NCBI GenBank assembly: GCA_016650445.1
Contig: JAENVS010000006.1
Span: 62,001-126,000 of the forward strand
Length of the DNA stretch: 64,000 nt
Source: Frankiaceae bacterium
GTDB taxonomy: Bacteria; Actinomycetota; Actinomycetes; Mycobacteriales; SCTD01
Direction of reading: 5' to 3'
Below, one piece after another: positions 8,229 to 26,030 of this stretch. Under the pieces are notes generated by a model. The model saw only the letters and a program-made list of their open reading frames with translations, ran no database searches and was not told the DNA's origin. The position numbers and the translations under genes were made by a program. Each line of letters opens with the position of its first letter. Position 1 is the first letter of the stretch.

Positions 8229-9608
8229 CTACACGAGCGCGAGAGCCGGCTTCGGCTTGCGCGTCGCGTACATCAGCCCGGTGCCGACCAGGAGCAGGAG
8301 CAGAGCAGCCTGCGTCAGCATCTCGGTGCTGCTGCCGGTGAACGGCAGCGCCGTGCCCGGGCCGGGAGTCGTCCCGCCGACAGGCGTGACGACGGTGGCC
8401 GGCGTGTTCGTGCGTCCTGTCACCGTGCCCGGCGTCGTGGCCGGGCCGCCGTCGCCACCGGTGATCGGGCAACCGGCCATGGCCGGACTGCTCGAGCCCG
8501 CGGGCGGGCAGACCTTCGGCGGGTTGCAGTCCGCGACGTTGCCGCTGGCCGGCATGGGGTTGCCGTTCGGGCAGAGCTCGCCGCCACCGCCGCCACCGCC
8601 GCCACACTCGGAGGCGTCGTGGTTGTTCGGGAGCAGGTGACCCTTGCAGTCGTACGACGGGTTGGTGCCGCCGCACTCAGTGGCGTCGTGGTTGTTCGGG
8701 AGCAGGTGACCCTTGCAGTCGTACGACGGGTTGGTGCCGCCGCACTCAGTGGCGTCGTGGTTGTTCGGGAGCAGGTGACCCTTGCAGTCGTACGACGGGT
8801 TGGTGGTCTCGCACTCCGACGCGCTGTGGTTGTTCGGCAGCAGGTGACCCTTGCAGTCGTAGTTGGGGGTCGACGGCGGGGTCGTGCAGGCGGTGTGGGC
8901 CGGGTTGCTGCGGCCGATGCCGTGGTTGCGGTCGCACTCGTAACCGGCGTTGCCGTCGGTCGCATTCGGCGCCTGGCCGGGCGGGTTCTTGTTGTCGGCC
9001 TTGCCGACACAGCCCGCGCACGGCTGGCCGACCTGCTTGCCACCGCCGTTGCCGTTCAGCGACGGCGCACCGTCACGGGTGGACCGGTACGGGTTGCTCG
9101 CCGACGTGTCGTTGGCGCCGGTGTTGTTGCCGTCGGCGGTCGAGAACGGCTGCAGCTGCGTGACGTCCCCGCTCGGCTGCCCACCGCCGACAGCGGGGCT
9201 GCCGCTGCGGCCGTTGACGACCTCGTAGGAGGTGGTGTTGGAGCCGGTGGTGACTCCGCCCTGGTTGGTGAAGGGCACCGAGGTCGTGTTGGTGTTGGTG
9301 CCGGTGGTCGACGCGGGGGCAACCGGACCGATGAAGCCGGCCGGCTTGGCAGCGATGACTGCCGCGTCGTGGCCCTTGGCCAGGCCGTTGGCGTTGTCGG
9401 CGGTGTCGTCCTTCTTAAGGGCGGCAGCGGCCTGGGCCTGCGCGCTGTTGCCGCGCTCGGCGACCGCAGCTGCGTCGTCGGCCGCGAAGGCCGGCGTACC
9501 GAAGCCGATGACCAGGGGAACGGAGAGGCAGATCGCCGCGAGCGTCGAGACGACGGGCGCGCGGCGGATCCTGCTGGTGGTACCTGAGGTGCTATGGATG
9601 GTGCGCAC
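8229..9608 (-). CDS. LPxTG-type cell-wall-anchored repeat surface protein
   Basis: Secreted protein, probably linked to the cell wall by a sortase. 459 residues from a GTG at 9608 with GGGAG seven nt upstream. The N-terminal signal peptide has a basic region (SRIRRAP), a hydrophobic core and an AFA-type cleavage site near residue 43. The middle is Asn/Gly/Thr-rich. It is followed by four near-identical 23-residue units with two cysteines each (consensus YDCKGHLLPNNHDATEC), a run of glycines, a Pro/Thr stretch, and an LPFTG sorting signal at about residue 421 with a membrane helix and the basic tail RKPKP. The function of the repeats is unknown. Upstream is a 300+ nt leader with a duplicated structured element. 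No sortase gene lies in the window. Confidence 0.88.
   Translation of the reverse strand: MRTIHSTSGTTSRIRRAPVVSTLAAICLSVPLVIGFGTPAFAADDAAAVAERGNSAQAQAAAALKKDDTADNANGLAKGHDAAVIAAKPAGFIGPVAPASTTGTNTNTTSVPFTNQGGVTTGSNTTSYEVVNGRSGSPAVGGGQPSGDVTQLQPFSTADGNNTGANDTSASNPYRSTRDGAPSLNGNGGGKQVGQPCAGCVGKADNKNPPGQAPNATDGNAGYECDRNHGIGRSNPAHTACTTPPSTPNYDCKGHLLPNNHSASECETTNPSYDCKGHLLPNNHDATECGGTNPSYDCKGHLLPNNHDATECGGTNPSYDCKGHLLPNNHDASECGGGGGGGGELCPNGNPMPASGNVADCNPPKVCPPAGSSSPAMAGCPITGGDGGPATTPGTVTGRTNTPATVVTPVGGTTPGPGTALPFTGSSTEMLTQAALLLLLVGTGLMYATRKPKPALALV
8605..8868 (-). repeat. 69-bp tandem repeats coding for 23-residue Cys-containing units
   Basis: Four head-to-tail units start at 8605, 8674, 8743 and 8812 with an exact 69-bp period. 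The middle two are almost identical at DNA level, and the unit at 8812 is the most diverged, which points to recent expansion within the surface protein gene. Each unit codes for two cysteines, suggesting one small disulfide-linked module per repeat. Confidence 0.93.
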
Positions 9609-9663
9609 GCGGGGACTCCCGTCCAAGGTAGAGGGCATCCGAAGATGTCCGGCTACCGGACGA

Positions 9664-9766
9664 GCCGGTCTCGCCACTAGCTCCCCGCACGGTCTTGGCG
9701 ACCGTCTTCCTCCGTGCACCTGCTGTCGGAGTGCGACAGCCGGTGTCGGTGAGGACCGTGCGGATC
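9664..9766 (-). ncRNA. structured leader element, copy 2 (promoter-distal), class unknown
   Basis: The minus-strand RNA can form a closing stem CCGCACGGTC/GACCGTGCGG (10 bp, perfect) around an internal hairpin GCTGTCG-CACTC-CGACAGC. It then carries a conserved single-strand core, CACGGAGGAAGAC before the closing strand and GGGGAGCTAGTGGCGAGACC after it. GGTCGCC inside the stem could pair with GGCGAGACC outside it, as a pseudoknot. It begins 158 nt and ends 55 nt before the start codon of the surface protein gene. A 6-bp hairpin (9647-9661) and a small hairpin presenting the GGGA of the Shine-Dalgarno (9613-9624) follow. I do not recognise a known riboswitch class. Confidence 0.6.
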
Positions 9767-9821
9767 ACAGCCTCTGCATCCGGTGACCAGAACGTCTCGC
9801 GACGCCCAGCTCACTGGGGCA

Positions 9822-9914
9822 GGTCGGTCTCGCCACTAGCTCCCCGCGCGGTCTAGGCGACCGAGTCTCTCCGTGTTCTCCCCGTGGGGCGAACCGGTGT
9901 GGACCGTGCGGATC
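9822..9914 (-). ncRNA. structured leader element, copy 1 (promoter-proximal), class unknown
   Basis: Same architecture as the copy at 9664-9766: GATCCGCACGGTCC at the 5' side, an internal hairpin of different sequence (GTTC-g-CCCC/GGGG-a-GAAC), CACGGAGAGAC, CGGTCGCC, then GACCGCGCGG and GGGGAGCTAGTGGCGAGACCG. The internal hairpin differs in sequence but keeps its pairing, and the closing stem has one mismatch. This pattern is expected of a folded RNA under selection. The rest of the gene-free stretch 9609-10074 holds no other gene that I can support; the promoter is presumably upstream of 9914, but no clear hexamers were found. Confidence 0.6.
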
Positions 9915-10074
9915 AACGCTTCCTTACTCGAAGCGGGTTGCTACCCACTTCACCGACCCATTACGCCACATGCTTGCGACGCGGCGCTAGGGGTCGGATA
10001 CAGAGAGTAACCAGAGATCAACCCAGAAGTAGTGGGCTGAACGGCGTAACTCTGGGTGGTGCTGGTCACACCCA

Positions 10075-11493: not shown

Positions 11494-12987
11494 ATGACGG
11501 ACGGGCAGACCCGCGTGCGTCGCTCCCGGCTGCGCGCGCGTGGACGAGGTGCCCGGAGCCGGCCCGTGGGGCTCGCCGACCCCGACGACGGGGCTGGTCA
11601 GGGGTCATCCGCCGGGACCAAGCTGCGCAAGAGCCGGCCGAGCCTCTCCCACCGAACACTGCTCCGGTACGGCGTCCGCCCCTTCCTGCTGCTGGCCGAC
11701 GCTCTCGCCTGGCTGAGCGTGACGGCCTGGGGTCAGGGTCCGTCCGGACGCGAGGCGGTCCTCCTCGCGCTCACGGTCGGGCTGTACTCCAACGCCGGCC
11801 TTTACCGGAGTCGGCTGTCGCTGTCGGCTCTGGACGACCTGCCCGCGCTCGTGGGCCGGGCGCTGGCAGCGGCGACGATCGCGACGTCGGTGGCGCTGCT
11901 CGTCGACCGGGACCTCGCCGACGCCGGTCTGTTGAAGACGGCTGCGGCGTTCGCCGTTCTCGTGACGCTGATGCGGGTGGCGGCCTACGCGATCGTGCGC
12001 GGCTTCCGCGCCGCCGGCTGGGTGACACATCCCACCCTCATCTTCGGCGCAGGCAAGGTGGGTGGACAGCTGGCCGCACTGCTGCTGGCACACCCTTCGT
12101 ACGGACTGCAGCCTGTCGGGTTCCTCGACACCGATCCCTTGCTCGAGCCCTTCGAACGGCCGGTGCCCCTCCTCGGCGGACAGGAGTCGCTGGCGCGCGT
12201 CATCGTCGAGTTCGGCGTACGTGACGTCATCGTCGCGTTCGCCTCCGTCGCCGAGTCGCAGATGGTCGAGATCATCCGGACGTGTGATCGCCTGGACGCG
12301 GAGATCTTCTTCGTGCCGCGGTTGTTCGAGCTGCACAACACGACCAGCGACATGGACCAGGTCTGGGGGCTCCCCCTGGTGCGACTGCGGCGAGCGGCGT
12401 TCCGCACCTGGTCCTGGCGGCTCAAGCGGCTGATCGACATCCTCGTCGGGGCGGCCGCCCTGGTCGTCCTCTCGCCGCTGATCGCGCTGATCGCCGTCGC
12501 GGTGCGCCTGGAGGGCGAAGGTGGAGTGCTGTTCCGCCAGGAGCGCATCGGGCTTGATGGCCGCAGGTTCGAGCTCCTGAAGTTCCGGTCGCTGCGTCCC
12601 GTTGACGACGACGAGTCGGCGACCCGCTGGAACATCGCCAACGACGACCGCCTCAGCAGCCTCGGCCGCTTCCTGCGGGCGACGAGCCTGGACGAGCTGC
12701 CGCAGCTGTTCAACGTGCTGCGCGGCGACATGACCCTCGTCGGCCCTCGACCCGAGCGTCCCCACTTCGTGGCGTCCTTCGCCAGCACGTTCCCCCGCTA
12801 CACGGCGAGGCACCGGGTACCCAGTGGGTTGACCGGCTGGGCGCAGGTGCACGGGCTGCGCGGAGACACCTCGATCGAGGACCGGGCCCGCTTCGACAAC
12901 TACTACATCGAGAACTGGTCACTCTGGAGTGACGTGAAGATCCTGCTGCGCACCGTGGTCATCGTGCTGCGCCGCAGCGGCGGCTGA
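11494..12987 (+). CDS. polyprenyl-phosphate sugar phosphotransferase (WbaP/CpsE type)
   Basis: Starts lipid-linked repeat-unit synthesis by moving a sugar-1-phosphate from a nucleotide sugar onto undecaprenyl phosphate at the inner face of the membrane. 497 residues. A basic cytoplasmic N-terminus and four or five hydrophobic segments (about 55-165) precede a Rossmann-like CoA-binding/NAD region (PTLIFGAGKVGGQLA). The C-terminal bacterial sugar transferase domain has WRLKRLIDILVG, LFRQERIGLDGRRF, KFRSLR, SLDELPQLFNVLRGDMTLVGPRPERP and YYIENWSLWSDVKIL. First gene of the EPS locus, so it probably commits the pathway. Confidence 0.95.
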   Translation: MTDGQTRVRRSRLRARGRGARSRPVGLADPDDGAGQGSSAGTKLRKSRPSLSHRTLLRYGVRPFLLLADALAWLSVTAWGQGPSGREAVLLALTVGLYSNAGLYRSRLSLSALDDLPALVGRALAAATIATSVALLVDRDLADAGLLKTAAAFAVLVTLMRVAAYAIVRGFRAAGWVTHPTLIFGAGKVGGQLAALLLAHPSYGLQPVGFLDTDPLLEPFERPVPLLGGQESLARVIVEFGVRDVIVAFASVAESQMVEIIRTCDRLDAEIFFVPRLFELHNTTSDMDQVWGLPLVRLRRAAFRTWSWRLKRLIDILVGAAALVVLSPLIALIAVAVRLEGEGGVLFRQERIGLDGRRFELLKFRSLRPVDDDESATRWNIANDDRLSSLGRFLRATSLDELPQLFNVLRGDMTLVGPRPERPHFVASFASTFPRYTARHRVPSGLTGWAQVHGLRGDTSIEDRARFDNYYIENWSLWSDVKILLRTVVIVLRRSGG

Positions 12988-12998
12988 CCCTCCGCCGG

Positions 12999-14903
12999 TC
13001 AGCCGGGGAGCCGTACCGGTTCGTTCCAGAAGCGGCGAATGGCATCGGTGATCCGCCGCGCCAGGCCGGGCCGGTGGATCGATGCATCGACCGTCCGCAC
13101 CTGGGTGAACGGGCCGGACAGGCGGATGTCGCCGCCGCTGATGTCCACACCGGCGCCGGCGGTCACGGACACGGACAGACCGGCGTCCACCGCCAGCGGT
13201 TGAGGCACCAGCGTGACGCGGTACCGACCGTCGTGGACCGGCATCCGGTAGCGCAGTCGCCAGCTCACCGAGGTGCCCGGCGAGAGGCTCACCAGGTCGG
13301 TCAGGACACGGTGGTCACCCTCGGGCATGACCGCGGTGCGCACTGCGGTGCCACCGCGGCTGAACTCCAGCAACGTGGCGCTTCGCGGTACGGCGAACGT
13401 CAGGTAGTTGTTGCTGACCCCAGGGGTCGCCTTGCCGGCGACGTACGACGGCAGGCCTCGGGACGGAGCGATGTTGCGCAGCGTCACGAGCTGCTCCACC
13501 GTGGCGTCCGTGCGGCTGACGACCGCGGAGTGCGTCACCAGCCGCCGCGCGTAGTAGTCGAGCTTGTTGCCGTTGCGGTCCCCCCCGCCGAAGTTCTGCA
13601 CGGCGACACTGACGAGATCCCCATCACCCGCCCGGACCCCGCCGTCGACGGCGCCGCTCGTCCACGCCTTCTGCTGGGCAGCATCTCCGGACCAGACCGC
13701 GAGATGCCGGCCGGCCACGGCTCGAGCCAGGCTCGGGGCAAGTCGCACCAGGTTCGGTGAGCCGTCGAGCAACCGGTTCAGCACGACGTCAGCGGCACCG
13801 CGCAGCCGGGCCCGTCGCAGCCCTTGACCGATCTCATCGTCGGTGGTGTTCCGATAGGCCTGCGACAGGAGCGACGCGACCGCTGTGTCCCCACTCAGGA
13901 CGGTGCCGTCCGGAAGCGTTGCCGGACCGGTCGCCTCCAGCACCGCCGCGATCGTGCGCACGTCGAGCCAGACGATCGCATCAGGTCGCCGGTGCAGGCT
14001 CTCCGCCGCGACGGACGCGAGCACCGCCGAGGAGGTGGCGATGTCCGGCGACATGTTCGTGTTCTTCCACAGCGTGGTGTCGGCGAGGAACGGCCCCCAC
14101 AGCCCGCGGTAGTCGGCGGGCGCGGACACCCGTCGAGGTGGGGAGCTCGTCCCTGGCACGTCCGCGACGTCCTGCACGTCGCGGAAGCCTTGCAGCTCCA
14201 GCTTGCCGTTCCTCGTGATCCCCTCGGCGAACACGCTGACCAGCCCGCCGGTTCCGCGGAGCTCGGCGTTGTTCTCGAGCACGACGAGCAGCCGCCGCGG
14301 CCCGTTGCGTCCAAGGAGGTCGCCGGTGGCCCCGAGCGCGTCCGCGGCCTGTGCGAGTGACCGCGGCAGCGAGCTGAGCTGGGTGCGCGCGCTGCGTACG
14401 GCGGAGGCGACCGACCCGGGGACCCTTGACGTCGGTGCGTCCGCCAGGGCGGCCACCGGTTCAGCGGTTGTCTTCGCCGCGCGGCGAAGATCGGCCTCCA
14501 GCCGCGCGAGCCGGACCAAATCGACCCGCCCGTCGGAGACGAGGTCCGCAGCTCGCGCGTCATCGACGAGGACCTGGAGCTGCTGGCCGACGCGCAGCGA
14601 CGCTCGCGTCGCGATCGCCACGGACTCGACGGTGTTGCCGGCAACCGGGACGCGGGCGGCGACGGAAGGACCGATCTGCGTCAGGCGGCTATCGGCTCGT
14701 TCGAGCCGCTTCGTGGCAGTGGCCAGCAAAGCGGCGGTCTCGTCCGACGACGTCGAGGACTGTGCCCGTTGCAGCTCGTCCTTCGCCTTGAGCAGGTCGC
14801 TGCGCGACATCACCAGGACGACGGCAGCCCAGGCCAGGGCCAGCAGAGCCAGCGCTGCGGCGACGGCGATGACCCGCACCGCGAGACGAAGCATCGACCC
14901 CAT
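12999..14903 (-). CDS. DUF4012 domain-containing membrane-anchored protein
   Basis: About 634 residues with one N-terminal membrane helix (LAVRVIAVAAALALLALAW), then a long extracytoplasmic part. Its features match DUF4012: LLVVLENNAELRGTGG, ADYRGLWGPF, NMSPDIATSSAVLA and DAIVWLDV. DUF4012 proteins recur in actinobacterial polysaccharide clusters; some members have been linked to attaching polymers to the wall, but I cannot assign a reaction. The start is uncertain: ATGs at 14903 and 14894 both fit the helix, and neither has a good Shine-Dalgarno. It is convergent with the glycosylphosphotransferase and nearly abuts the divergent GT39 start. Confidence 0.85.
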   Translation of the reverse strand: MGSMLRLAVRVIAVAAALALLALAWAAVVLVMSRSDLLKAKDELQRAQSSTSSDETAALLATATKRLERADSRLTQIGPSVAARVPVAGNTVESVAIATRASLRVGQQLQVLVDDARAADLVSDGRVDLVRLARLEADLRRAAKTTAEPVAALADAPTSRVPGSVASAVRSARTQLSSLPRSLAQAADALGATGDLLGRNGPRRLLVVLENNAELRGTGGLVSVFAEGITRNGKLELQGFRDVQDVADVPGTSSPPRRVSAPADYRGLWGPFLADTTLWKNTNMSPDIATSSAVLASVAAESLHRRPDAIVWLDVRTIAAVLEATGPATLPDGTVLSGDTAVASLLSQAYRNTTDDEIGQGLRRARLRGAADVVLNRLLDGSPNLVRLAPSLARAVAGRHLAVWSGDAAQQKAWTSGAVDGGVRAGDGDLVSVAVQNFGGGDRNGNKLDYYARRLVTHSAVVSRTDATVEQLVTLRNIAPSRGLPSYVAGKATPGVSNNYLTFAVPRSATLLEFSRGGTAVRTAVMPEGDHRVLTDLVSLSPGTSVSWRLRYRMPVHDGRYRVTLVPQPLAVDAGLSVSVTAGAGVDISGGDIRLSGPFTQVRTVDASIHRPGLARRITDAIRRFWNEPVRLPG

Positions 14904-14912
14904 GAGCCGAGC

Positions 14913-16421
14913 ATGGCATCCGCATCGTGCTTCCATACGCGCGTGGCGGGCGTCGACGTCGAGACCAGCCCGCTGCGCAGCAGCCGGTCACTGGTGCTGG
15001 CCGTCCTCGGCGGCGTCGCGGTGACCGCCCTGCTGCCCGGCACGCGCCGCCCACTCTGGCTCGACGAGGCTGCCAGCGCGAGCCTGGCGGCCCTGCCAGG
15101 GGAGTCGTTCCGTCAGGTCGTCCTGCACCGGGAGGGCAACGGGATCGCGCACACCCTGCTGCTGCGCGGCTGGCGGCACGTGGCCTCAGGTGACCTGGGC
15201 CTGCGGGTGCCGTCGCTGGTGCTCTCGGCCCTGGCTGTGCTGGCCCTCACGTCGCTGGCCCTGACCCTGTTCGACCGGCGTACCGCCTTGCTGGTCCCGC
15301 CGTTGCTGGTCGGCAACCCGCTCTACGTCCGGTACGCCGTCGAGGCGCGCACCTACGCCCTCGTGCTGCTGCTGTCCTGCCTCAGCGGCACGCTCCTCGT
15401 CCGCGCGCTGCGCCGTGACACTGTCGCCGGCTGGGCCCTCTACGCCCTGCTCACCGGGGCCGCCGTCTACGCCCACTACTTCGCCCTCCTGCTCCCGCTC
15501 GGACACGGCGTGGCCGTCCTGCTGCGACGCGCCCCGCTGCCCCGTTCCCGGGGCCTGCTAGCCGGCGCCGCCGTCTACCTGGTGGTCGTCTCCGGGCTCG
15601 CGGCACTCCTGAACGGCGCCGGGGCGAGCGGGGTCGGCTACCTGGAGAACTCGCCGCTGCTGAAGGCGGCGATCCCGGGAAGCCTGGCGGTGGGGTTTCT
15701 CGCGACGGCGGCCGGTGTCGCCGTCGTCCTCCGACGCCGGAGCCAGGGCCACCCGGTGGTCCTCCGCGCCGGGCCGAGCACCTGGCCGTGGCTGCTCGTA
15801 GGCAGCTGGTTGGTCTGCCCCGCGGTCGCTGCCGTTCTCGTCTCGGTGCTGCTGACCCCGGTGCTCGCGCCGCGTTACCTGGTCATCTGCCTGCCACCGG
15901 CTGTCCTGCTTCTCGCGGCAGCACTGGCGCGGCTGCCCTGGACAGCCGTCACCGCGGTCATCACCGCCCTGGTGACCCTCGCCGGCCTGCTGGTGGGCGA
16001 CCGCTACGTCCAGAGCCAGACAGAGGACTGGCCGCAGGCCGCCGAGGCCGTGGCCAGCCGCGCCGTGGCCGGCGACGGCGTGCTGTTCGCGGCTCCCTAC
16101 GTCCGCCTGCCCTTCGAGCGCCACTGGCCAGGAGAAGCAGAGCAACGTCGCGGCGTGGATCCGCTGCTGCCCGACCTCCCCTGGGGCGCGTCCCCCACGG
16201 AGCTGTTCTTTGACGTCCCCCTCCCACGGGAGCGCGTCGCCACCGCGCTGGCCGGACGCCAGCGCGTGTGGCTGGTGCTCAGCCACGTCAACCTGTACGG
16301 GCAGGCCGACCCGGTGCTGGACGGCGTCAACGCTGCGTTACGCAGCGTCATGACCATGACGTCGGAACGTGCGTTCCGCGGGGTGTCTGTCCAGGTCTGG
16401 GAGCGTTCTGCGGCGCCTTGA
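14913..16421 (+). CDS. GT39-like polytopic glycosyltransferase
   Basis: GT-C fold membrane enzyme that would use a polyprenyl-phosphate-linked sugar on the outer face. Up to 502 residues with about ten hydrophobic segments. The acidic motif of the first outer loop is visible as LWLDEAAS near residue 50, followed by the family's PSLVLSALAV and YAVEARTYALVLLLSC segments, then a C-terminal soluble part. It resembles PMT_2 proteins of exopolysaccharide loci. The ATG at 14913 lies only 9 bp from the divergent DUF4012 start; a GTG at 14943 is an alternative. Confidence 0.82.
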   Translation: MASASCFHTRVAGVDVETSPLRSSRSLVLAVLGGVAVTALLPGTRRPLWLDEAASASLAALPGESFRQVVLHREGNGIAHTLLLRGWRHVASGDLGLRVPSLVLSALAVLALTSLALTLFDRRTALLVPPLLVGNPLYVRYAVEARTYALVLLLSCLSGTLLVRALRRDTVAGWALYALLTGAAVYAHYFALLLPLGHGVAVLLRRAPLPRSRGLLAGAAVYLVVVSGLAALLNGAGASGVGYLENSPLLKAAIPGSLAVGFLATAAGVAVVLRRRSQGHPVVLRAGPSTWPWLLVGSWLVCPAVAAVLVSVLLTPVLAPRYLVICLPPAVLLLAAALARLPWTAVTAVITALVTLAGLLVGDRYVQSQTEDWPQAAEAVASRAVAGDGVLFAAPYVRLPFERHWPGEAEQRRGVDPLLPDLPWGASPTELFFDVPLPRERVATALAGRQRVWLVLSHVNLYGQADPVLDGVNAALRSVMTMTSERAFRGVSVQVWERSAAP

Positions 16422-16495
16422 GCGCCGGTGTCACCCTAACGGGCTATCGCGTCATCACAACGAGTGACGACATCTGAAGTGTCCCGCCACTACGG

Positions 16496-16584
16496 GATCG
16501 GTCGAAAGGGCAAACCCGTCGCGAGGCGGGGACGCAAAGCCATGGAGGTCCGTCCAGGACCCTGCCAGGCCGTCGAAGCCGATC
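16496..16584 (+). promoter_or_regulatory. GEMM / cyclic di-GMP-I class riboswitch aptamer
   Basis: It shows the hallmark segments of the class: AAAGGGCAAACC, a P2 stem capped by a GCGA tetraloop (CCCGTC-GCGA-GGCGGG), GGGACGCAAAGCC, and a second arm GGTCC/GGACC followed by CTGCCAGGCC. P1 closes as GATCGG (16496-16501) with CCGATC (16579-16584). The class binds c-di-GMP, with some members binding cGAMP; I favour c-di-GMP in an actinobacterium, but the choice is inferred. It begins 122 nt before the start of the secreted hydrolase gene. Confidence 0.9.
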
Positions 16585-16617
16585 GGTCCTGTCTGCCTCG
16601 AGAGGCTCCTCAGGACC
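16585..16617 (+). promoter_or_regulatory. expression-platform hairpin abutting the start codon
   Basis: GGTCCTG (16585-16591) pairs with CAGGACC (16611-16617), with an inner GCCTC/GAGGC stem, and the ATG follows at once. It directly follows the aptamer P1, and its arms can also pair with the aptamer's own GGTCC/GGACC arm. A ligand-dependent swap that hides or frees the ribosome site is plausible. There is no U-tract, so I infer translational control. Confidence 0.6.
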
Positions 16618-17844
16618 ATGCGCCGTCTTCCGTCCCTGCTGCGTTGCGCAGCCACCCTGGCCGCGACAGTCATCATCGCCGCCGGGTTGAGCACGGCGAC
16701 CGCGACCGCCGCCCATGCCGAGGGATCAAGCACCGCGGCGCTGTCAGGCGTGTACGCCGGCGGGCTCAGACTGGACAAGGCCCGGGCATTCGGGTCCTGG
16801 CGGGGGCAGGCCGTGACTGTCACGGGCGACTTCCTGTCAGGCGACAGCTGGGCCGGCGTCGAGGCGCCGGACTGGTGGACAGGCGCGTGGTCGGGCTCGG
16901 GCACGCGCATGGTGATCGGCGTACCGATCCTCCCCGGACCGCAGGGCAGCACGACGCTGGCGGCGGGCGCCACGGGCGCGTACGACGCCCACTTCCGCAC
17001 ACTGGCCAGCCGGCTCATCGCGGCCGGGATGTCCGACGCCGTCCTCCGCCTCGGCTGGGAGCAGAACGGCACCTGGTACCCGTGGTCGTCGTACGGCCAC
17101 GAGACGGAGTTCATCGGCTACTGGCGGCACATCGTCACCGCGATGCGATCGGTCTCCGGCGCGAAGTTCGCGTTCGCCTTCAACCCGACCCTCGGCCCCG
17201 GCCAGTGGGGCAGCCACCCGGAGCAGGCGTGGCCCGGCGACAGCTACGTCGACACCATCTCGCTCGACGTCTACGACTGCATGTGGGGCAACAGCACGGC
17301 GACGCCGGCCCAGCGCTGGACCGCCGTCCAAGAAGGCACCTACGCCCTGGACTGGTGGGCCGCGTTCGGTGCCGCGCACGGCAACAAGCCGCTGTCGTTC
17401 CCCGAGTGGGGCCTGGTTGACCGCGCCGACCAGAACGGTGGCGGCGGTGGCGACAACCCGCTGTTCATCACCAACTTCCTGAACTGGGTTCGGTCGCACC
17501 ACGTGCTGTACGAGACCTACTTCGAGGTGGACGCGCAGGACGGCAACCACCTGCTCGAGGGCAGCACCTTCCCGAAGGCCGCGGCCGCCTACCGCCAGGC
17601 CATGACCGCGCCGGCCGCGGCAGCGACTCCCGTCGCCGCCGCCGTGACCGCCCCAGCCGCCGACGCAACCACCCCGATCGCCACCGTCGTCGCCACCGCC
17701 GTCGCCCCCGTGGCGCCGCTGGTCACCGTCGCAGCGCCGGTCGCGGTTGCCACGACGGCTGCCACCTCGCGGACGACCGTCTCGGCGTCCTCGCGCGTCG
17801 TGAAGCGCCTGCGCTGGCGCGGCGTGCCCCGCACGCGCCGGTAA
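16618..17844 (+). CDS. secreted GH26-like glycoside hydrolase
   Basis: Extracellular hydrolase, probably of a beta-mannan or related glycan. 408 residues with a signal peptide (basic MRRLPSLLR, hydrophobic core, AHA cleavage near residue 34). The TIM-barrel domain runs from about 40 to 330. Its candidate acid/base is E148 in RLGWEQNGTWYPW and its nucleophile E263 in FPEWG, matching the GH26 pattern. A Ala/Thr/Val/Pro-rich tail of about 80 residues ends in a basic cluster (KRLRWRGVPRTRR). Expression appears to be set by the upstream c-di-GMP-type riboswitch. In a polysaccharide locus it could trim or release the polymer. Confidence 0.85.
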   Translation: MRRLPSLLRCAATLAATVIIAAGLSTATATAAHAEGSSTAALSGVYAGGLRLDKARAFGSWRGQAVTVTGDFLSGDSWAGVEAPDWWTGAWSGSGTRMVIGVPILPGPQGSTTLAAGATGAYDAHFRTLASRLIAAGMSDAVLRLGWEQNGTWYPWSSYGHETEFIGYWRHIVTAMRSVSGAKFAFAFNPTLGPGQWGSHPEQAWPGDSYVDTISLDVYDCMWGNSTATPAQRWTAVQEGTYALDWWAAFGAAHGNKPLSFPEWGLVDRADQNGGGGGDNPLFITNFLNWVRSHHVLYETYFEVDAQDGNHLLEGSTFPKAAAAYRQAMTAPAAAATPVAAAVTAPAADATTPIATVVATAVAPVAPLVTVAAPVAVATTAATSRTTVSASSRVVKRLRWRGVPRTRR

Positions 17845-17851
17845 CCGGTTC

Positions 17852-18877
17852 TCACGTCGCAGCGGGTAGCGCACCCCGCGCCGCGCGCTGCTTCAGGCGC
17901 AGGAACGGCGCCTCCACGAGCCGGTAGGACAGCTCGGCGGCGGCGAAGCAGAGCAGGAGTCGCGCCGGGCCCACCGCCGGGCCCAGCACCGCAGGCACGT
18001 CGTCGGCCGCGATCATGCGGACGAGCACGAAGTTCCACAGGTAGAGCCCGTACGAGACGACGCCGACGTGCACCAGCGGCCGAAAGGAAACCCACGTGGC
18101 CAGTCGGGGGCTCGCGCCCGGCAGGACGCCCACGATCAGCAGGGCGCTGGCCACGGCGCCCAGCGCGTAGCCGAACAGCGCGCCACCCCGGTTGGGCGGC
18201 GGGAACACGACGAGGACCGCCAGCACCGCCAGTCCGACCCAACCAGGCGCGAGCCGTGCCAGCCGCGGCGGGCACCTGCCGTCGTGCTGCACCAGCCACG
18301 CGGCTAGCGCGCAGCCCAGCAGGAGCCCGTCGGCACGGACATCGGGCCCATACGTGGTGCGCACGAGGGAGGCGCCGTGCAGGACCAGGATGCTCCGCAG
18401 CAGCCACGACAGCAGCGCGCCAGCCAGGACGAACCAGACGATCACCTGCGGCCGTCGCCTGCTGAGCAGAACCAACAGGGGCGGCCACAACAGGTAGAAG
18501 TGCTCCTCGATCGACAGCGTCCAGGTGTGCAGCAGCGGTCCCATGTCGTACCCGGCCGCGGCCGCCACATCGCTGAAGTACGTCGCGGCGAGGAGCACCT
18601 GGGTGCGCACCGCGCCGGCCGAGAAGTCACGCCCGATCCGGCCGAGCCGCAGCTCGCCCACCAGCAGCACGACGGCGAGGACGACGACGAGAGCGGGCGC
18701 CAGGCGGAGCACCCGGCGCAGGTAGAACGCCTTGAGATCCAACCGGCCGGCGCGCTCCCGCTCACCCAGGAGGAGCGAGGTGATGAGAAAGCCGCTGAGC
18801 ACGAAGAAGACCTGCACACCGAGGTCGCCACCGCGGAACGGCCGCAGGTTCGTGTGGTAGCCGACGACGGCCAGCAC
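17852..18877 (-). CDS. acyltransferase 3 family membrane protein, N-terminus unresolved
   Basis: Multi-pass O-acyltransferase (OafA/Acyltransferase_3 family) likely to put an acetyl or other acyl group on the polysaccharide. About ten membrane helices; the family motifs GVQVFFVLSGFLIT, FYLRRVLRLAPAL and HTWTLSIEEHFYLLWP are present, with the conserved His in GYH. The first usable start is the GTG at 18877. However, the canonical N-terminal motif LPALDGLRGIA is encoded in frame just upstream (18910-18878), with no ATG, GTG or TTG before it. The true start may be a rare codon (CTG at 18901) or lie in a +1 frame relation to the kinase gene upstream, or there is an indel. Confidence 0.85.
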   Translation of the reverse strand: MLAVVGYHTNLRPFRGGDLGVQVFFVLSGFLITSLLLGERERAGRLDLKAFYLRRVLRLAPALVVVLAVVLLVGELRLGRIGRDFSAGAVRTQVLLAATYFSDVAAAAGYDMGPLLHTWTLSIEEHFYLLWPPLLVLLSRRRPQVIVWFVLAGALLSWLLRSILVLHGASLVRTTYGPDVRADGLLLGCALAAWLVQHDGRCPPRLARLAPGWVGLAVLAVLVVFPPPNRGGALFGYALGAVASALLIVGVLPGASPRLATWVSFRPLVHVGVVSYGLYLWNFVLVRMIAADDVPAVLGPAVGPARLLLCFAAAELSYRLVEAPFLRLKQRAARGALPAAT

Positions 18878-18959: not shown

Positions 18960-20387
18960 TCAGCCCCGACGAGGCACCACCGTCCGCGCGGCGCCGGACT
19001 GCACGGCCTTCGCCGTCTTGGGGCTCTTCGGGTCCTTCACGGAGCTGCTGGCCGTGGCCTGCAAGGTCTTCGCAGCCAGGTAGTAGGCGTCCTGACCCCG
19101 CCGAGCACGTCGTCTCGGTGCTCTGTTCAGCACGATGCCGAGCACCAGCACGTCCGCACGGCGGAGCCGCTCGAGGCCGCGCTCGACCTCGTCGACCGTG
19201 GCCTTGCGGGCATCGACGACGAGCAGCGCCGCCTTGCACAGCACGAGCACCCGCAGCGTCTCGGCAACGGACTCCAGCGGAGGGGTGTCGACGAGGACGA
19301 GCCCTCCGGGTGCCTGCGCCGACGCGAGCACCGCCGGCAGAGCCGCGTCGAGCACCTCCAGCGGGTGCTGTCGCGGCAGCCCGGCCGGGACGACCACGAG
19401 CGACGGCTCGCTCGTCCTCGCCATCAGGGTGGCGAACGGCAGCCGGTCGGCGTCCGCAAGGCCAGGCTCCACGGCGACGTCGAAGATCTCGTGCTGCCTC
19501 GGCCGGCGCAGGTCGGCATCGAGGACCACGACCGGGTAGCCGGCGCTGGCGAGCGACCACCCCAGGGCTGCGGTCACGGACGACTTGCCCTCGCCCCCGT
19601 GCAACGAGGTCACCGCGAGCACGTTCGGCCGACTGCCTCGGCCGGCCGAGTCGAGGCTGCTCCGAATCCGTTGCAGGGCCTCCGTGACGCGCGGATCGAC
19701 CTTGCCGGACGCGAGTGCCGTCGGGCTGAGCTGGCGACGCCGCCGGCGCCGGGAACCCTTCAGGACAGGGATCTCCCCGAAGACGAGCACACCGGTGCGG
19801 CGAGGGAGGTCGTCCGCGAGCATGCCGCGCGCGGCGAGGGCACGCGCGAGCAGGGCCGCGACGAGCCCCGCGAACGTCGCCAGGACCAGTCCCCCGAGCA
19901 GAATCGCGATCCGCGGCGGACCGGACGGTGCGGTCGGGTCGACCGCACGGTCGAGCACCTGGAGCCGAACGCCGGTGAGGCCGCGGGCATGCCTGGTGAG
20001 CAGTGCGAAGGCCGCGCTGTTGGCGTAGCCGGCGACGACAGTGCGGTCGGGTGACTCGGCGCTGATCTGGAGCACGCCCGTGCCGGCGTCCGGCTGGGCA
20101 GTCAGGATGACGTCGGCCTCGGACAGCGGCGACGCGTACGAACCGCGCACAGCCTGTTCAACGGCGTCGCTCTCGGCTGTCGCCGCGAGCGTCGGAATAA
20201 GGATCTGTGCCACCGCCGCGAAGGCGTTGATGTCCGCGGACGGGAGCGCGACGATCGTCGTCGTCGCCGTGAAGCGGTCCTTCGGCAGGAACGCCGCAGC
20301 GGCTGCCAGGAGAAGCACCGCGACGAACGTCGAGGCCGCGATCCAGCGGTGCCGTCGTAGCGCCTGCAACAGGTCGGTCAACGTCAC
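18960..20387 (-). CDS. Wzc-like chain-length determinant / tyrosine kinase
   Basis: Controls polymerisation and export of the polysaccharide in the membrane. 475 residues from a GTG with GGGAG seven nt upstream; the GTG overlaps the stop of the ligase gene. The Wzz domain has membrane helices near residues 15-35 and 175-200. The cytoplasmic BY-kinase domain has Walker A HGGEGKSSV, Walker A' VVVLDADLRRP and Walker B LVLVDTPPL. The C-terminus has only a YY pair (DAYYLAAK) instead of a long tyrosine cluster, then a basic tail. A +1 shift at its TGA would continue into the acyltransferase frame. Confidence 0.92.
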   Translation of the reverse strand: MTLTDLLQALRRHRWIAASTFVAVLLLAAAAAFLPKDRFTATTTIVALPSADINAFAAVAQILIPTLAATAESDAVEQAVRGSYASPLSEADVILTAQPDAGTGVLQISAESPDRTVVAGYANSAAFALLTRHARGLTGVRLQVLDRAVDPTAPSGPPRIAILLGGLVLATFAGLVAALLARALAARGMLADDLPRRTGVLVFGEIPVLKGSRRRRRRQLSPTALASGKVDPRVTEALQRIRSSLDSAGRGSRPNVLAVTSLHGGEGKSSVTAALGWSLASAGYPVVVLDADLRRPRQHEIFDVAVEPGLADADRLPFATLMARTSEPSLVVVPAGLPRQHPLEVLDAALPAVLASAQAPGGLVLVDTPPLESVAETLRVLVLCKAALLVVDARKATVDEVERGLERLRRADVLVLGIVLNRAPRRRARRGQDAYYLAAKTLQATASSSVKDPKSPKTAKAVQSGAARTVVPRRG

Positions 20388-21802
20388 GTCGCGGCTCCCG
20401 CAGCAGGGGTGGGCTGGTGCCCGATGGCCATCAGACTGGCATCCCAGTCGTCCTCGGGGTCGGAAGACGGATCGTGCGAGCGGCTGAGCGAGCACACCAT
20501 GCCGACCAGCAGGCCCAGCAGCAGCGCGAGTCGGTACTTCTCGAACAGGGACTCCACCATGCCCTTGGCCGCCCAGCCGACGACACCGGCCGTCGCCGCC
20601 AGCGCGGTGGCCGACACCAGCGGCTCGAGGGAGCGACGCACCACCCGAAGTCCATCGACCACCGTGCTCGTGACGGCTGCGAGGAACAGCAGCACCCCGA
20701 CAAGACCCATTCTGAGCAGGACGTCGAGCACGACGTTGTGGGTCACATCGCTGACGACGAACTCTGCCGGTCCTGGTTCGTAGTACGCGTAGGTCTTGCC
20801 CAGCCCGTGGCCTTGGACGAGGCGCTCGGCAAGGAGGGGCCTGACCTCACGCCACTGGTTCACCCGCCCCTGGCTGGACAGCTGCTTCCCGCGCGAGTGC
20901 AACGCCTGCTCGACGGTCGTGGTGAGCGGCACGGAGGGGGCCTTGCCGCCCAGAGCGCCCAGCAGCACCGGTGCCGCCACGAGCGCTCCCGCCAGCAACC
21001 CGATGACAACCAGCTCGCCGAGTGGGACACGCACATGCTGTCGGGTGATCGCCAGGACCACGACGCAGAACAGGACGGCGCAGCCGGTGCCGATCATGGC
21101 CGCGCGCTGCCCGGCCGCCAGCGCGCTCAACAGGAGCGGAACAGAGGCTGCCAGCAGGAGGAAGCGACGGCGGCTCTCGTGCAGCGCCCGGACGCAGGCG
21201 AGCACTCCGAGCGTGCCGAAGACGGTTGCTGCGTCGGAGCCGATGCGGCCGGCGTTCGGTGAGGACAGGAGTGGCAGGTTGATGGGCCTGGCCAGTCCCG
21301 ACTGGTCGACGAGCAGCAGCACGGCGACACCCGCGCCGACGATGATGAGGAACCGTGGCAGCGCCGGGCCTCGCCACTGGTGGGCAGGCACACCGGAGGC
21401 AACCCACATCACGCCGAGATACGCGAAGGCCTTCGCCTCGTAGACGAGCAGCACCCGGTCGTTCTGCACGAGCACGCCGACGACCGCGGCGGTCAGCATC
21501 CAGCCGAAGAAGAGCAGCCAGCACGCGTCGGTCGCGCGCAGCCGGTTGGGGATCCCCCGCACGAGCAGGTGCGCAGCGATGGCGGCCAGCACCACGGTGT
21601 CGAGCAGCCTGAAGTTCGACCCGCCGATACTCGGGTGCACCAGGCCGGCCGGGATGGTGTTGGGGTCGGGCCAGAGGCCGCTCTCGACGACCAAGAGCGC
21701 CAGCAGCCACAGCACGACCTGCAGTTGGCGACCCGTCCGCTCGAGGTGAAGGAACGTGGCGAACAGCAGTGCGGACAGCACCAGGGCGAGCAACGCGGCC
21801 AC
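20384..21802 (-). CDS. O-antigen ligase/polymerase (Wzy-like) membrane protein
   Basis: Probable repeat-unit polymerase or ligase acting on the outer face of the membrane. About 472 residues and 11-12 hydrophobic segments. The large outer loop between them carries SSQGRVNQWREVRPLLAER and GHGLGKTY, a pattern typical of the Wzy_C/O-antigen ligase family. The C-terminal tail is acidic and cytoplasmic. GTG at 21802 is my choice; GTG at 21781 would trim the first helix. The start lies 36 bp from the divergent GT2 start, so one or both genes may be leaderless. It overlaps the Wzc-like gene (GTGA). Confidence 0.85.
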   Translation of the reverse strand: MAALLALVLSALLFATFLHLERTGRQLQVVLWLLALLVVESGLWPDPNTIPAGLVHPSIGGSNFRLLDTVVLAAIAAHLLVRGIPNRLRATDACWLLFFGWMLTAAVVGVLVQNDRVLLVYEAKAFAYLGVMWVASGVPAHQWRGPALPRFLIIVGAGVAVLLLVDQSGLARPINLPLLSSPNAGRIGSDAATVFGTLGVLACVRALHESRRRFLLLAASVPLLLSALAAGQRAAMIGTGCAVLFCVVVLAITRQHVRVPLGELVVIGLLAGALVAAPVLLGALGGKAPSVPLTTTVEQALHSRGKQLSSQGRVNQWREVRPLLAERLVQGHGLGKTYAYYEPGPAEFVVSDVTHNVVLDVLLRMGLVGVLLFLAAVTSTVVDGLRVVRRSLEPLVSATALAATAGVVGWAAKGMVESLFEKYRLALLLGLLVGMVCSLSRSHDPSSDPEDDWDASLMAIGHQPTPAAGAAT

Positions 21803-21838
21803 GTGCTGAAGGGTACGGCGGTGTGCCAGGCTGAGCGG

Positions 21839-23047
21839 GTGCTTGGGCCCGGGGCGGCGCGGCGGCTGGCCACCGGTCTGGGTCGCATCGGGGCAGCCGT
21901 CCTCTGGCTGCCGACGTCGTACCTGCTTGCCGTGTCCGTGGCGGGGCTGCTGCCGCCGCGGAAAGCGTCCCCCACGAGCGCGCAATGGGCGGGTCGCCTG
22001 ACCGTGCTGGTGCCCGCGCACGACGAGGAACGGGGCCTGGCCGCGACGTTGCACTCGCTGGCCCGGTGCACCGCGCCGCCCGACGGGTTGCACGTGATCG
22101 TCGTCGCGGACAACTGCTCGGACACCACGGCCGAGGTAGCGCGCCGCTGTGGCGTCGAGGTGTGGGAGCGCACCTCCCCCCTGAGGGGCAAGGGCTACGC
22201 GCTGAGGTGGGCGATGGACCGCCTGCTCGCGGAGGCAGAGTCCCCGTCAGCTGTCGCGATCGTCGATGCCGACACCGTCGTGGACGCGGACTTCCTGCTG
22301 GTCGCCGCCAACCGGCTCGCGCAGGGCGCGCGCGCTGTGCAGGGCGTGTACCGCGCGGCCCGTCCTCACGAGGCCGCGCTGCTCACCCGGCTCACCGACG
22401 CAGCCGCCGCCTGTCAGTCCGTGCTCCGGCCACGTGGCCGCGCCCGGCTCGGTGGCGCGGCGAAGCTGCAGGGCAATGGCATGGTCTTCGCCACCGATGT
22501 CCTGCGCGCGGTGCCGTGGGACGCCTACGGGGTGGCGGAGGACGTCGGCTACTGGATTCGCCTCTTGCGGGCGGGCATCCACCCGGTGCATGAGCCCCGC
22601 TGTGGTGTCGAGAGCGCGATGCCGACGGACGTGACCGCTGCGCGCGTGCAACGTGCCCGCTGGGAGACCGGTCGCGTTGAGGTGGTGCGGGAGCACCGGT
22701 GGCCGGCGCTGCGGCAGGCGTGGGTGCAGCACGATCCCGTGCTGGCCGAGGCGGTCGTCTCGGAGCTCGTGTTCCCACCCTTGGCGCCGATGGCCGGTGC
22801 CGTCGCGGCGGCGGCGCTGCTGACCGCCGTCGGCACGGCCGCCGACCGCCGCGCCGGTCTGCGCACCGGCGCGGCGCAGGGCGCCGTGCTCGTCGGCCAC
22901 GCGCTGGCCGGCCTCCGGGTCACCCAGGCGCCACCGCAGACCTACCTCGCGCTGGCTGCGGCGCCGGGCGTCGTCGCGTGGAAGATCTGGACGAAGCTGG
23001 CCCAGCGCGGCCGTCCCGGCGACTGGCAGCGCACTCCCCGCCCCTGA
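21839..23047 (+). CDS. GT2 family membrane glycosyltransferase, processive type
   Basis: Uses a nucleotide sugar at the inner membrane face. 402 residues. One N-terminal helix precedes the GT2 core: LTVLVPAHDEERGL, IVDADTVVDADFL (DxD), GVAEDVGYW (ED catalytic acid) and a QRARW motif (Q..RW) typical of processive beta-glycosyltransferases. C-terminal hydrophobic segments follow near 300-370. It could build a linear chain (glucan, GlcNAc polymer or mannan), but donor and product are unknown. GTG at 21839 begins just before the first helix; the Shine-Dalgarno is weak. Confidence 0.88.
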   Translation: MLGPGAARRLATGLGRIGAAVLWLPTSYLLAVSVAGLLPPRKASPTSAQWAGRLTVLVPAHDEERGLAATLHSLARCTAPPDGLHVIVVADNCSDTTAEVARRCGVEVWERTSPLRGKGYALRWAMDRLLAEAESPSAVAIVDADTVVDADFLLVAANRLAQGARAVQGVYRAARPHEAALLTRLTDAAAACQSVLRPRGRARLGGAAKLQGNGMVFATDVLRAVPWDAYGVAEDVGYWIRLLRAGIHPVHEPRCGVESAMPTDVTAARVQRARWETGRVEVVREHRWPALRQAWVQHDPVLAEAVVSELVFPPLAPMAGAVAAAALLTAVGTAADRRAGLRTGAAQGAVLVGHALAGLRVTQAPPQTYLALAAAPGVVAWKIWTKLAQRGRPGDWQRTPRP

Positions 23048-24088: not shown

Positions 24089-25224
24089 GCGGCGCCGCCG
24101 CGGTCCACCTTCGGCCAACGCGCCAGTGGCTCGCGGCGCAGGTGTCGCCACAGCCCGCCGAGCCCGACGGCCTGGAGGAAGGCGGCGGAACCCAGGGCGC
24201 CGACCGGCCCCGGCAGCCCCTGGCCGCGGCTGGTCAGCACGTGGGCCGCGCCGGCCACGACGTGCGCCATCGCAAACGAGGCGCTGATCGGGGCTGACCG
24301 GGGTCCCCGTCGCAGCCGGACGAGTGCGAACCCGAGCAGCGTGGCCTGGGCGACGGGCGCGGCGCTCGCCCGCAGCACCCGGTGGCCCCACAGCTGGGCG
24401 CTGACCAGGTCCGCACGCAGCAGGAGCGCCTGCCGTCGCCGGACGACGTCGAGCATGCCGGCCACGATCCGCGTTCGGCGCTCCCAGTCCTCCTGCCAGG
24501 TGCCGCTGGCGTCCTCCACCGCAACCGCGGCCGGCTCGTAGACGACGCGCAGGCCCTGTTCGAGGACGTCGAGCGCCACCCAGAGGTCGTCCACAGCCAC
24601 GTCGGCCGGCACCGGTCGCCAGGCCGTACGCCGGATGGCGGCCAGCTCCCCGACCAGGCCGATCGTGCCGCCCAGCCGGGACTCGCGCGTCTTGAGCCAG
24701 GACTCGAAGCGCCAGTACGCCGACTCCGCACCGGCACTGAGCTGCTTCTCGCCGGCCACAGCTCCCACTGCCGGGTCGCAGAACCAGGCAGCGAGCGCCG
24801 CGAGGGATCCCGGCATGAGGCGGGTGTTGGCGTCGCTGAGCACGACGATCTCGCCGTCTGCGGCGGTGACGCCGATGTCGAGCGCTGCCGACTTGCCGAC
24901 CCGGCGACCTGGGCTGACGACGACGGCTGCCGTCTCCCGGGCCGCTGCCGCGGTCGGCTCGTCGTCCGCGACGACCACCACCTGCAGCCGACCCGGATAG
25001 CCGTTCGCGTGAGCATCGGCGACCTTCGCGGCGATGAGCCGCGCCTCGTGGTAGGCGGCCACGACAACCGTCATGTTCGGCCAGTCGGGCGGGTCGGGCG
25101 GCCGCTGCTCGATCGGCCGGCGGCGCGCGGCGAAGGCGAGACCGGCCGGGTAGAGGACCGGTCCGGCCAGGACGACAGCGCTCAAGCCCGTCACCGCGAT
25201 GCGGCGGGCTGCAACCAGAGCCAC
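24085..25224 (-). CDS. GT2 family membrane glycosyltransferase
   Basis: About 379 residues. One N-terminal helix, then MTVVVAAYHEARLIAAKVAD, VLSDANTRLMPGSL (DxN in place of DxD) and AVDDLWVALDVLEQGL (catalytic acid), then WERRTRIVAG, where the usual Q..RW is relaxed to RR.R, and C-terminal hydrophobic segments. It is probably a polysaccharide-chain transferase similar to the plus-strand GT2 but diverged. The start is uncertain: GTG at 25224 has G-rich sequence upstream, and GTG at 25272 is an alternative. Coupled by overlap to the GT4 gene. Confidence 0.85.
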   Translation of the reverse strand: MALVAARRIAVTGLSAVVLAGPVLYPAGLAFAARRRPIEQRPPDPPDWPNMTVVVAAYHEARLIAAKVADAHANGYPGRLQVVVVADDEPTAAAARETAAVVVSPGRRVGKSAALDIGVTAADGEIVVLSDANTRLMPGSLAALAAWFCDPAVGAVAGEKQLSAGAESAYWRFESWLKTRESRLGGTIGLVGELAAIRRTAWRPVPADVAVDDLWVALDVLEQGLRVVYEPAAVAVEDASGTWQEDWERRTRIVAGMLDVVRRRQALLLRADLVSAQLWGHRVLRASAAPVAQATLLGFALVRLRRGPRSAPISASFAMAHVVAGAAHVLTSRGQGLPGPVGALGSAAFLQAVGLGGLWRHLRREPLARWPKVDRGGAA

Positions 25225-25345
25225 GCCACCCCCAGCCCCGGCGATCCGGCGGCGGGTCCGCCGTGCCTCCACAGCATGCCGTGTCGCCGCGCAGCCGGAC
25301 CTGAAAGCCGAGTTGGCACGAGCTGCTGCGGACACGCTCCGTGGG

Positions 25346-25774
25346 ATGCTGCTCGGCGTGCCGCACCGCGTCGGGATCGACCTCATCGCCGTGGAGGACG
25401 TCGCGGCCGCGTTGAGCGCACACGGCGAGCGCTACCTGGCCCGGGTCTACACCGACCGCGAGGTGCAGGACTGCGCCGGCCCGGCCGGGCCGGATCCGCT
25501 CCGGCTCGCCGCCCGCTTCGCGGCCAAGGAGGCGACGATGAAGGTGCTGCGACCGGGCGACGCAGCCGTGCCCTGGCCGAGCGTCGAGGTCCGCAGGAAC
25601 CCCGGTGGCGACGTCGAGCTCGCGCTGACCGGTGCCGCCAAGGCACTGGCGGAGGATGCCGGTCTGTCGGGATTTGCGGTGAGCCTCACCCATGACGGGG
25701 CGTACGCCGCTGCCGTCGTCGTGGCAGACCATGCGCCGACGGCACTGCAGAACCAGCGCTGCCATGTCGACTGA
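25346..25774 (+). CDS. AcpS-type 4'-phosphopantetheinyl transferase
   Basis: Converts an apo carrier protein to the holo form using coenzyme A. 142 residues. The family signatures are visible: VGIDLIAVEDV near the N-terminus (metal-binding Asp in GIDL) and RFAAKEATMKVL (catalytic/metal Glu in KEA), with SLTHDGAYAAAVVV at the end. It overlaps the next gene, which codes for a carrier protein, so that protein is its probable dedicated substrate. ATG at 25346 or GTG at 25358 could be the start; neither has a strong Shine-Dalgarno. First gene of a nine-gene run with no intergenic bases. Confidence 0.85.
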   Translation: MLLGVPHRVGIDLIAVEDVAAALSAHGERYLARVYTDREVQDCAGPAGPDPLRLAARFAAKEATMKVLRPGDAAVPWPSVEVRRNPGGDVELALTGAAKALAEDAGLSGFAVSLTHDGAYAAAVVVADHAPTALQNQRCHVD

Positions 25775-26030
25775 ACCGAGCATGAACGATCTCATCCGAA
25801 CGGTGCTTCGCGACCACGGCCGACTTCCCGTCCCTATGGAGACCCTTGCCGACAGCGACGACCTCTACCGTGCCGGAATGGCCTCGCATGCGAGCGTCAA
25901 CGTCATGCTCGGGCTCGAGGACGCCTTCGATGTCGAGTTCCCCGACCGGATGCTGACGCGAGGCGTCTTCGCGAGCGTCGATGCCATCGCGGCTGCGCTG
26001 ACCGAGCTCGGCCTGGGCGCCCCGGCGTGA
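25764..26030 (+). CDS. carrier protein of the amino acid:[carrier protein] ligase type
   Basis: 88-residue acidic helical protein that would carry an acyl or aminoacyl group on phosphopantetheine. The attachment serine is S41 in GMASHASVNVMLGLEDAF; the usual DSL is replaced by ASH, which is normal in carrier proteins paired with the aminoacyl ligases downstream. The segment DVEFPDRMLTRGVFASVDAI also fits that subfamily. ATG at 25764 overlaps the AcpS-type gene by 11 nt; ATG at 25782 is an alternative. The stop overlaps the next start (GTGA). Confidence 0.88.
   Translation: MSTEPSMNDLIRTVLRDHGRLPVPMETLADSDDLYRAGMASHASVNVMLGLEDAFDVEFPDRMLTRGVFASVDAIAAALTELGLGAPA

Follow-up and report, generated by a model that had tools for sequence, protein, structure and literature searches.

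A predicted class I c-di-GMP riboswitch with competing P1 pairings precedes a secreted GH26-type hydrolase gene in an exopolysaccharide cluster

The locus described here raises a question about the control of exopolysaccharide (EPS); namely, whether a c-di-GMP riboswitch that precedes the gene for a secreted glycoside hydrolase could govern the cutting of a polymer as well as its synthesis and, if so, by which change in RNA pairing and in which direction. The locus lies within a window of 64,000 nucleotides from the genome of a Frankiaceae bacterium; all coordinates refer to this whole stretch of DNA.

Aptamer, target gene and genomic surroundings

The initial annotation described a GEMM-type c-di-GMP aptamer and a downstream hairpin at 16496–16620, and the sequence at these positions matches that description. 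Scored against the Rfam covariance model for c-di-GMP-I riboswitches (RF01051), a check that the annotation had proposed, the forward strand at 16499–16577 matches over the whole model (positions 1–87) with 52.8 bits (E = 1.8 × 10−7), well above the gathering cut-off of 35 bits. The bases were mapped by the Rfam alignment and compared with those of 48 other copies, giving a set of 49 c-di-GMP-I copies including that of the window. The 5′ strand of P1 in its native register (16496–16504, +) pairs with 16574–16576 and with the 3′ strand CCGATC at 16579–16584 (+), a pairing found in folds and in the pair counts of the six-member clade described below, in which 94.4% of the P1 cells are paired and one pair is compensatory. 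P2 (16515–16530, +), aligned by Rfam, carries a GCGA tetraloop and has two pairs that are changed on both sides within the clade; P3 (16538–16571, +), placed by alignment and fold, ends in an apical GGTCC/GGACC arm and has an A-C mismatch at its base in the window copy. For the three-helix junction of P1, P2 and P3, 96.5% of cells are paired across the clade and four pairs are changed on both sides. Judged from its sequence, the element is a riboswitch of a known class in front of a sensible target, the start codon of which lies 40 nt beyond the aptamer.

The universally conserved intercalating base, A47 in the standard numbering, corresponds to A16536 and is kept, within GACGCAAAGCC. The equivalent of G20, G16509, is also kept, which argues for c-di-GMP over 3′,3′-cGAMP, the ligand of the A20 type; the ligand of the window copy is thus probably c-di-GMP. 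At the position of the ligand-pairing base C92, the window copy departs from the typical C and has U16573, a base present in only 2 of the 49 copies. Our mapping equates C92 with the first base of the 3′ CC, in agreement with the contacts listed for the cGAMP riboswitch (G74, C75 and C76; PMC7288161), where C75 is the pairing base (PMC9262584). G20 and C92 have been described as less conserved than A47 (PMC9049102), so class membership stands despite U16573, with the affinity in doubt. A Vc2 double mutant, G20A/C92U, binds c-di-GMP at 4.9 μM compared with 0.011 nM for the wild type (PMC9049102); our literature search found no binding figure for C92U alone. The substitution may therefore signify a reduced affinity, a changed preference or a worn-out switch. 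The other copy with U at this position (L131, in genome G094) lies upstream of a gene for a small secreted protein. The position of G20 is itself variable, being C in L002, L031, L019 and L132 and A in L138; three of these copies belong to the clade of the window copy.

The target gene (16618–17844, +) encodes a 408-residue protein with a Sec-type signal sequence, judged by eye: MRRLPSLLRCAATLAATVIIAAGLSTATATAAHAE. The Pfam GH26 model PF02156 matches residues 142–220 only, with 24.8 bits (cut-off, 20.2 bits). The nearest solved structure in phmmer searches is that of the Clostridium thermocellum lichenase Lic26A (endoglucanase H; E = 5 × 10−8), and mannanases match more weakly. The alignment to CtLic26A (2bv9) covers residues 119–331 at low identity and, with positions counted on it, places E148 and E263 opposite E109 and E222 of Lic26A, which we take to be the catalytic residues of that enzyme. 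The window protein differs from CtLic26A in having W at the position of the H that precedes the acid/base Glu and in an Ala/Pro-rich C-terminal tail. Both Glu residues are kept in nearly all of the homologues compared, including those with approximately 35–39% identity from another family of the order, which also share the GWE motif. Signal sequence, Pfam match and aligned catalytic pair together bear out the view that the target is a secreted GH26-like hydrolase. The accompanying suggestion of a β-mannan substrate is too narrow, given that, among solved structures, a lichenase and not a mannanase is nearest, and mannan would not be our favoured guess. No homologue of the gene was found in 23 other genomes of its family, and a search for the same gene across the family, the genome contigs and the order returned distant homologues only; a riboswitch was detected at none of the 20 loci of such distant homologues that were searched. 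One locus in another genus of the family (L105, in G010) has two adjoining GH26 genes, with no riboswitch detected.

By gene content, the surroundings are a Wzz/Wzy-type EPS cluster, consistent with the earlier description of the hydrolase as a neighbour of EPS synthesis genes. Upstream are an initiating sugar transferase (11560–12987, +; PF02397, 219.6 bits), a DUF4012 protein (12999–14936, −) and, directly 5′ of the riboswitch, a PMT_2-type membrane glycosyltransferase (14913–16421, +). Downstream are an acyltransferase 3 (17852–18877, −), a Wzz/ParA-type ATPase protein (18960–20387, −) and a Wzy-type polymerase/ligase (20384–22093, −), all assigned by Pfam, and the cluster holds several further glycosyltransferases. 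A row of genes at 25199–31566 (+), also inside the cluster, encodes a phosphopantetheinyl transferase, a short carrier-protein-like ORF, an acyl-CoA-dehydrogenase-like ORF, a protein without Pfam match, a DUF1839 protein and a GH2-type protein, and may serve to decorate the polymer with acyl or aminoacyl groups.

The genome (3.44 Mb in 50 contigs) contains three c-di-GMP-I and nine c-di-GMP-II-GAG aptamers as well as 26 GGDEF domains, which points to extensive c-di-GMP signalling. c-di-GMP-I aptamers are present in 20 of 24 sampled genomes of the family compared with about 10 of 373 other sampled genomes of the order. Two of the class II aptamers of the window are in tandem (9655–9784 and 9813–9932, −; 53.4 and 54.5 bits) and precede, 6.5 kb from the class I switch, a gene (8232–9629) for a secreted protein whose C terminus carries an LPFTG motif and a hydrophobic tail. 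A second tandem class II pair elsewhere in the genome (L007/L010) precedes a gene for a similar LPFTG-type protein.

Competing pairings ahead of the start codon

The hairpin 3′ of the aptamer was noted from the outset as touching the ATG with its 3′ arm, and this is the case: the arm CAGGACC (16611–16617, +; sequence and fold) abuts the ATG at 16618 and pairs with GGTCCTG at 16585–16591 (+; folds and energies), enclosing an inner stem, GCCT/AGGC (16595–16606, +; fold). The Shine–Dalgarno (SD) bases are presumably AGGA at 16612–16615 or GAGG at 16602–16605; the spacing of both candidates is poor, at 2 and 12 nt. We refer to the two arms as the SD arm and the anti-SD. Three segments compete for the anti-SD: the SD arm, the 5′ strand of P1 in a shifted register, and the apical arm of P3. 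The register-shifted strand (16493–16503, +), supported by energies, co-transcriptional folds and clade pair counts, pairs with 16581–16591 in an unbroken helix of eleven pairs, of which three are GU, and thereby captures the anti-SD.

Which partner is favoured depends on how much of the leader has been transcribed. When the transcript stops at 16608, short of the SD arm, the shifted fold has −56.4 kcal/mol, native P1 −48.4 kcal/mol and the pairing of P3 with the anti-SD −46.7 kcal/mol; the shifted register thus beats native P1 by 8 kcal/mol until the SD arm is made, and its mean pair probability at this stage is 0.61–1.0, varying with the assumed 5′ end. Once the SD arm is present, native P1 together with the SD hairpin reaches −64.9 kcal/mol, compared with −57.8 kcal/mol for the shifted register with the SD open and −55.4 kcal/mol for the P3 exchange. 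By these energies, the leader would begin in the shifted register and finish with a buried SD. Native P1 is accompanied in the folds by the SD hairpin rather than by an open SD. Because the SD arm of the full-length leader is sequestered at equilibrium whether or not ligand is bound, any switching must be kinetic. Searches found neither an intrinsic terminator nor a sigma-70-like promoter.

A riboswitch clade with unrelated targets

In a tree of the aptamer copies, that of the window (L003) falls into a clade of six (support, 96/67) with L002 from the same genome, L031, L019, L017 and L032. A model of these six gives its members 102–116 bits and no other copy more than 62 bits, and a search of 394 genomes of the class with it found no further members. 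A hairpin between the anti-SD and the start codon is present in all six loci (shuffle P = 0.017–0.12). In the folds of all six, the 5′ strand of P1 also takes up the anti-SD to some degree while the SD arm is still incomplete, most clearly in L003, L017 and L019 and more weakly in L002, L031 and L032. Across the clade, 83% of the cells of the shifted helix are paired and two pairs are changed on both sides, a level reached by 15 of 500 shuffles; shuffling the P1 strand gave P = 0.016 and 0.025 for two loci and 0.07–0.39 for the other four. Because six related sequences are few, we regard the apparent conservation of the shifted pairing as support and not as proof.

The targets of the clade are otherwise unrelated secreted proteins: the GH26 protein of the window, a GH16 protein (L032; 50.3 bits), an M10 peptidase (L019), a protein without Pfam match that is encoded in a glycosyltransferase locus (L017) and, in two species, a small protein (L002 and L031). 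The idea that the whole clade is tied to EPS loci was not upheld, as L002 adjoins genes that are his-type by sequence and L019 has no recognised EPS neighbours. A separate branch of the riboswitch is found upstream of GH5-type hydrolases in three genomes (G012, G002 and G416), the hydrolases being 45–57% identical to each other. In G012 and G002 the gene order is wzz, wzy, hydrolase, riboswitch, and the EPS locus of G002 resembles that of the window in its sugar transferase (72% identity) and DUF4012 protein (50% identity); the aptamer of G002 is weak, at 31.5 bits, under the cut-off. A hydrolase as the target, as first proposed for the window, fits these GH16 and GH5-type cases in relatives.

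Direction of control and known systems

We lean towards the reading that this class I riboswitch acts on translation of the secreted GH26-type hydrolase encoded in the EPS cluster and that it is most likely an OFF switch, one that probably prevents synthesis of the enzyme until c-di-GMP falls. Without ligand, the 5′ strand of P1 would take the anti-SD in the shifted register during transcription, leaving the SD arm open to ribosomes. Bound c-di-GMP would lock P1 in the native register and free the anti-SD to close on the SD arm, so that no hydrolase is made; by stabilizing native P1, the ligand would speed the step from the shifted register to the hidden SD, which amounts to kinetic control. 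At high c-di-GMP the polymer would then be built and not cut, and at low c-di-GMP the enzyme would be made and would trim or release the polymer of the strain itself.

Other readings of the switch itself have to be weighed against this one. The initial annotation had the hairpin exchange partners with the GGTCC/GGACC arm of P3, and the complementarity is real: CAGGACC at 16555–16561 can form seven pairs with GGTCCTG at 16585–16591, and GGTCC at 16547–16551 can pair with GGACC at 16613–16617, 16547–16551 and 16557–16561 thus both matching the hairpin arms. This part stood; the exchange is energetically poor, falling 9.7 kcal/mol behind the shifted register while the SD arm has yet to be transcribed and approximately 9.5 kcal/mol behind native P1 with the hairpin afterwards, and in its full form it leaves the SD paired. 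It is also not conserved, the pairing of P3 with the anti-SD being no better than that of shuffles (P = 0.21–0.98 in all six loci). At roughly 10 kcal/mol worse than the alternatives, it was rejected as the main switch, and we consider it highly improbable; the register-shifted P1 is a better switching partner than the P3 arm. An ON switch, by which c-di-GMP would open the start site and high levels of it would lead to hydrolase production for chain tailoring or matrix remodelling during synthesis, is unlikely. In its favour, both ON and OFF switches have been found in class I (PMC6366702), and EPS-cluster hydrolases are common, with their role in synthesis an open question (PMC9075953); the coexistence of native P1 with the SD hairpin rather than with an open SD speaks against it.

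It is quite unlikely that the switch is worn out, giving no response to physiological c-di-GMP while the hairpin merely keeps translation low. Such decay would account for U16573 and for the mismatch at the base of P3, and the micromolar binding of the G20A/C92U mutant (PMC9049102) would agree with it, but all other helices are intact, the equivalents of G20 and A47 are kept, and C92 has been described as less conserved than A47. Very unlikely, in our estimation, is a further possibility suggested by the change from C92 to U with G20 kept: that the window copy favours, or additionally accepts, a mixed ligand such as 3′,3′-cGAMP, bound in reversed orientation, within a register-shifting riboswitch clade passed between unrelated matrix-degrading enzymes. 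As for the enzyme, we doubt that it digests foreign β-glucan or β-mannan for food and is located in the EPS cluster incidentally. Its kinship with the lichenase CtLic26A and its absence from other genomes of the family, as if acquired, are compatible with a role in feeding; against this, the tested neighbours are EPS genes, homologues in other families also lie close to sugar transferases or occur as several copies together, and the GH5 and further targets of sister riboswitches are also in EPS-type loci.

The favoured OFF switch resembles Vc2 of Vibrio cholerae, a translational class I OFF switch that is governed by P1 and for which kinetic control is assumed (PMC9262584). The two share a class I aptamer and, by prediction for the window copy, translational control in which the stability of P1 is decisive. 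The window copy differs in its short P3 without consensus receptor bases, in the U at C92, in having a register-shifted P1 as the rival fold and in its target, a secreted hydrolase. In Clostridioides difficile, a class I riboswitch turns off the secreted releasing protease PPEP-1/ZmpI (ppep-1/zmpI; PMC6366702), and class II riboswitches turn on the LPXTG-like, sortase-anchored adhesins CD2831 and CD3246, which PPEP-1 releases (PMC6366702; PMC6447587). The window similarly combines class I with a secreted hydrolase and class II with an LPFTG protein, although its enzyme is a glycoside hydrolase and not a protease, and control appears to be translational and not by termination. The C. difficile pair is also linked as enzyme and substrate, whereas the likeness of the window lies in the class pairing of the genes alone. 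Like PslG of Pseudomonas aeruginosa and the GH16 enzyme ExoK of rhizobia, the window hydrolase is encoded among synthesis genes; unlike them, it has a predicted GH26 fold, and riboswitch control is not described for PslG or ExoK in the papers found. The GH16 target in genome G006 matches ExoK and EglC weakly.

A literature search for c-di-GMP-I control of EPS hydrolases found only a mention of chitinase genes 3′ of such riboswitches; because hydrolases in EPS clusters are already known as well, an arrangement of this kind is not new. Three features stand out: the repeated association with secreted hydrolases that are unrelated to each other, the platform based on a register shift, and the U at a ligand contact. 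If the favoured reading is true, c-di-GMP acts on both sides of the matrix, a high level sparing the polymer and a fall yielding the enzyme that cuts it. The occurrence of one riboswitch lineage before GH26, GH16 and M10 genes and of another before GH5-type genes suggests that selection keeps the riboswitch and not the enzyme family, and the C-to-U change would be a natural test of how aptamer affinity or ligand choice is tuned.

Other copies in the family precede genes for type IV pilins, for small secreted proteins beside signal peptidases and for LuxR-type regulators. Four copies (L016, L034, L036 and L038) form one branch with seemingly one target gene family; the target of L016, which was tested, combines B12-binding and LuxR-type HTH domains and is thus an unusual target. 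In other families of the class, c-di-GMP-I copies (L154 and L153) lie before response-regulator-type genes.
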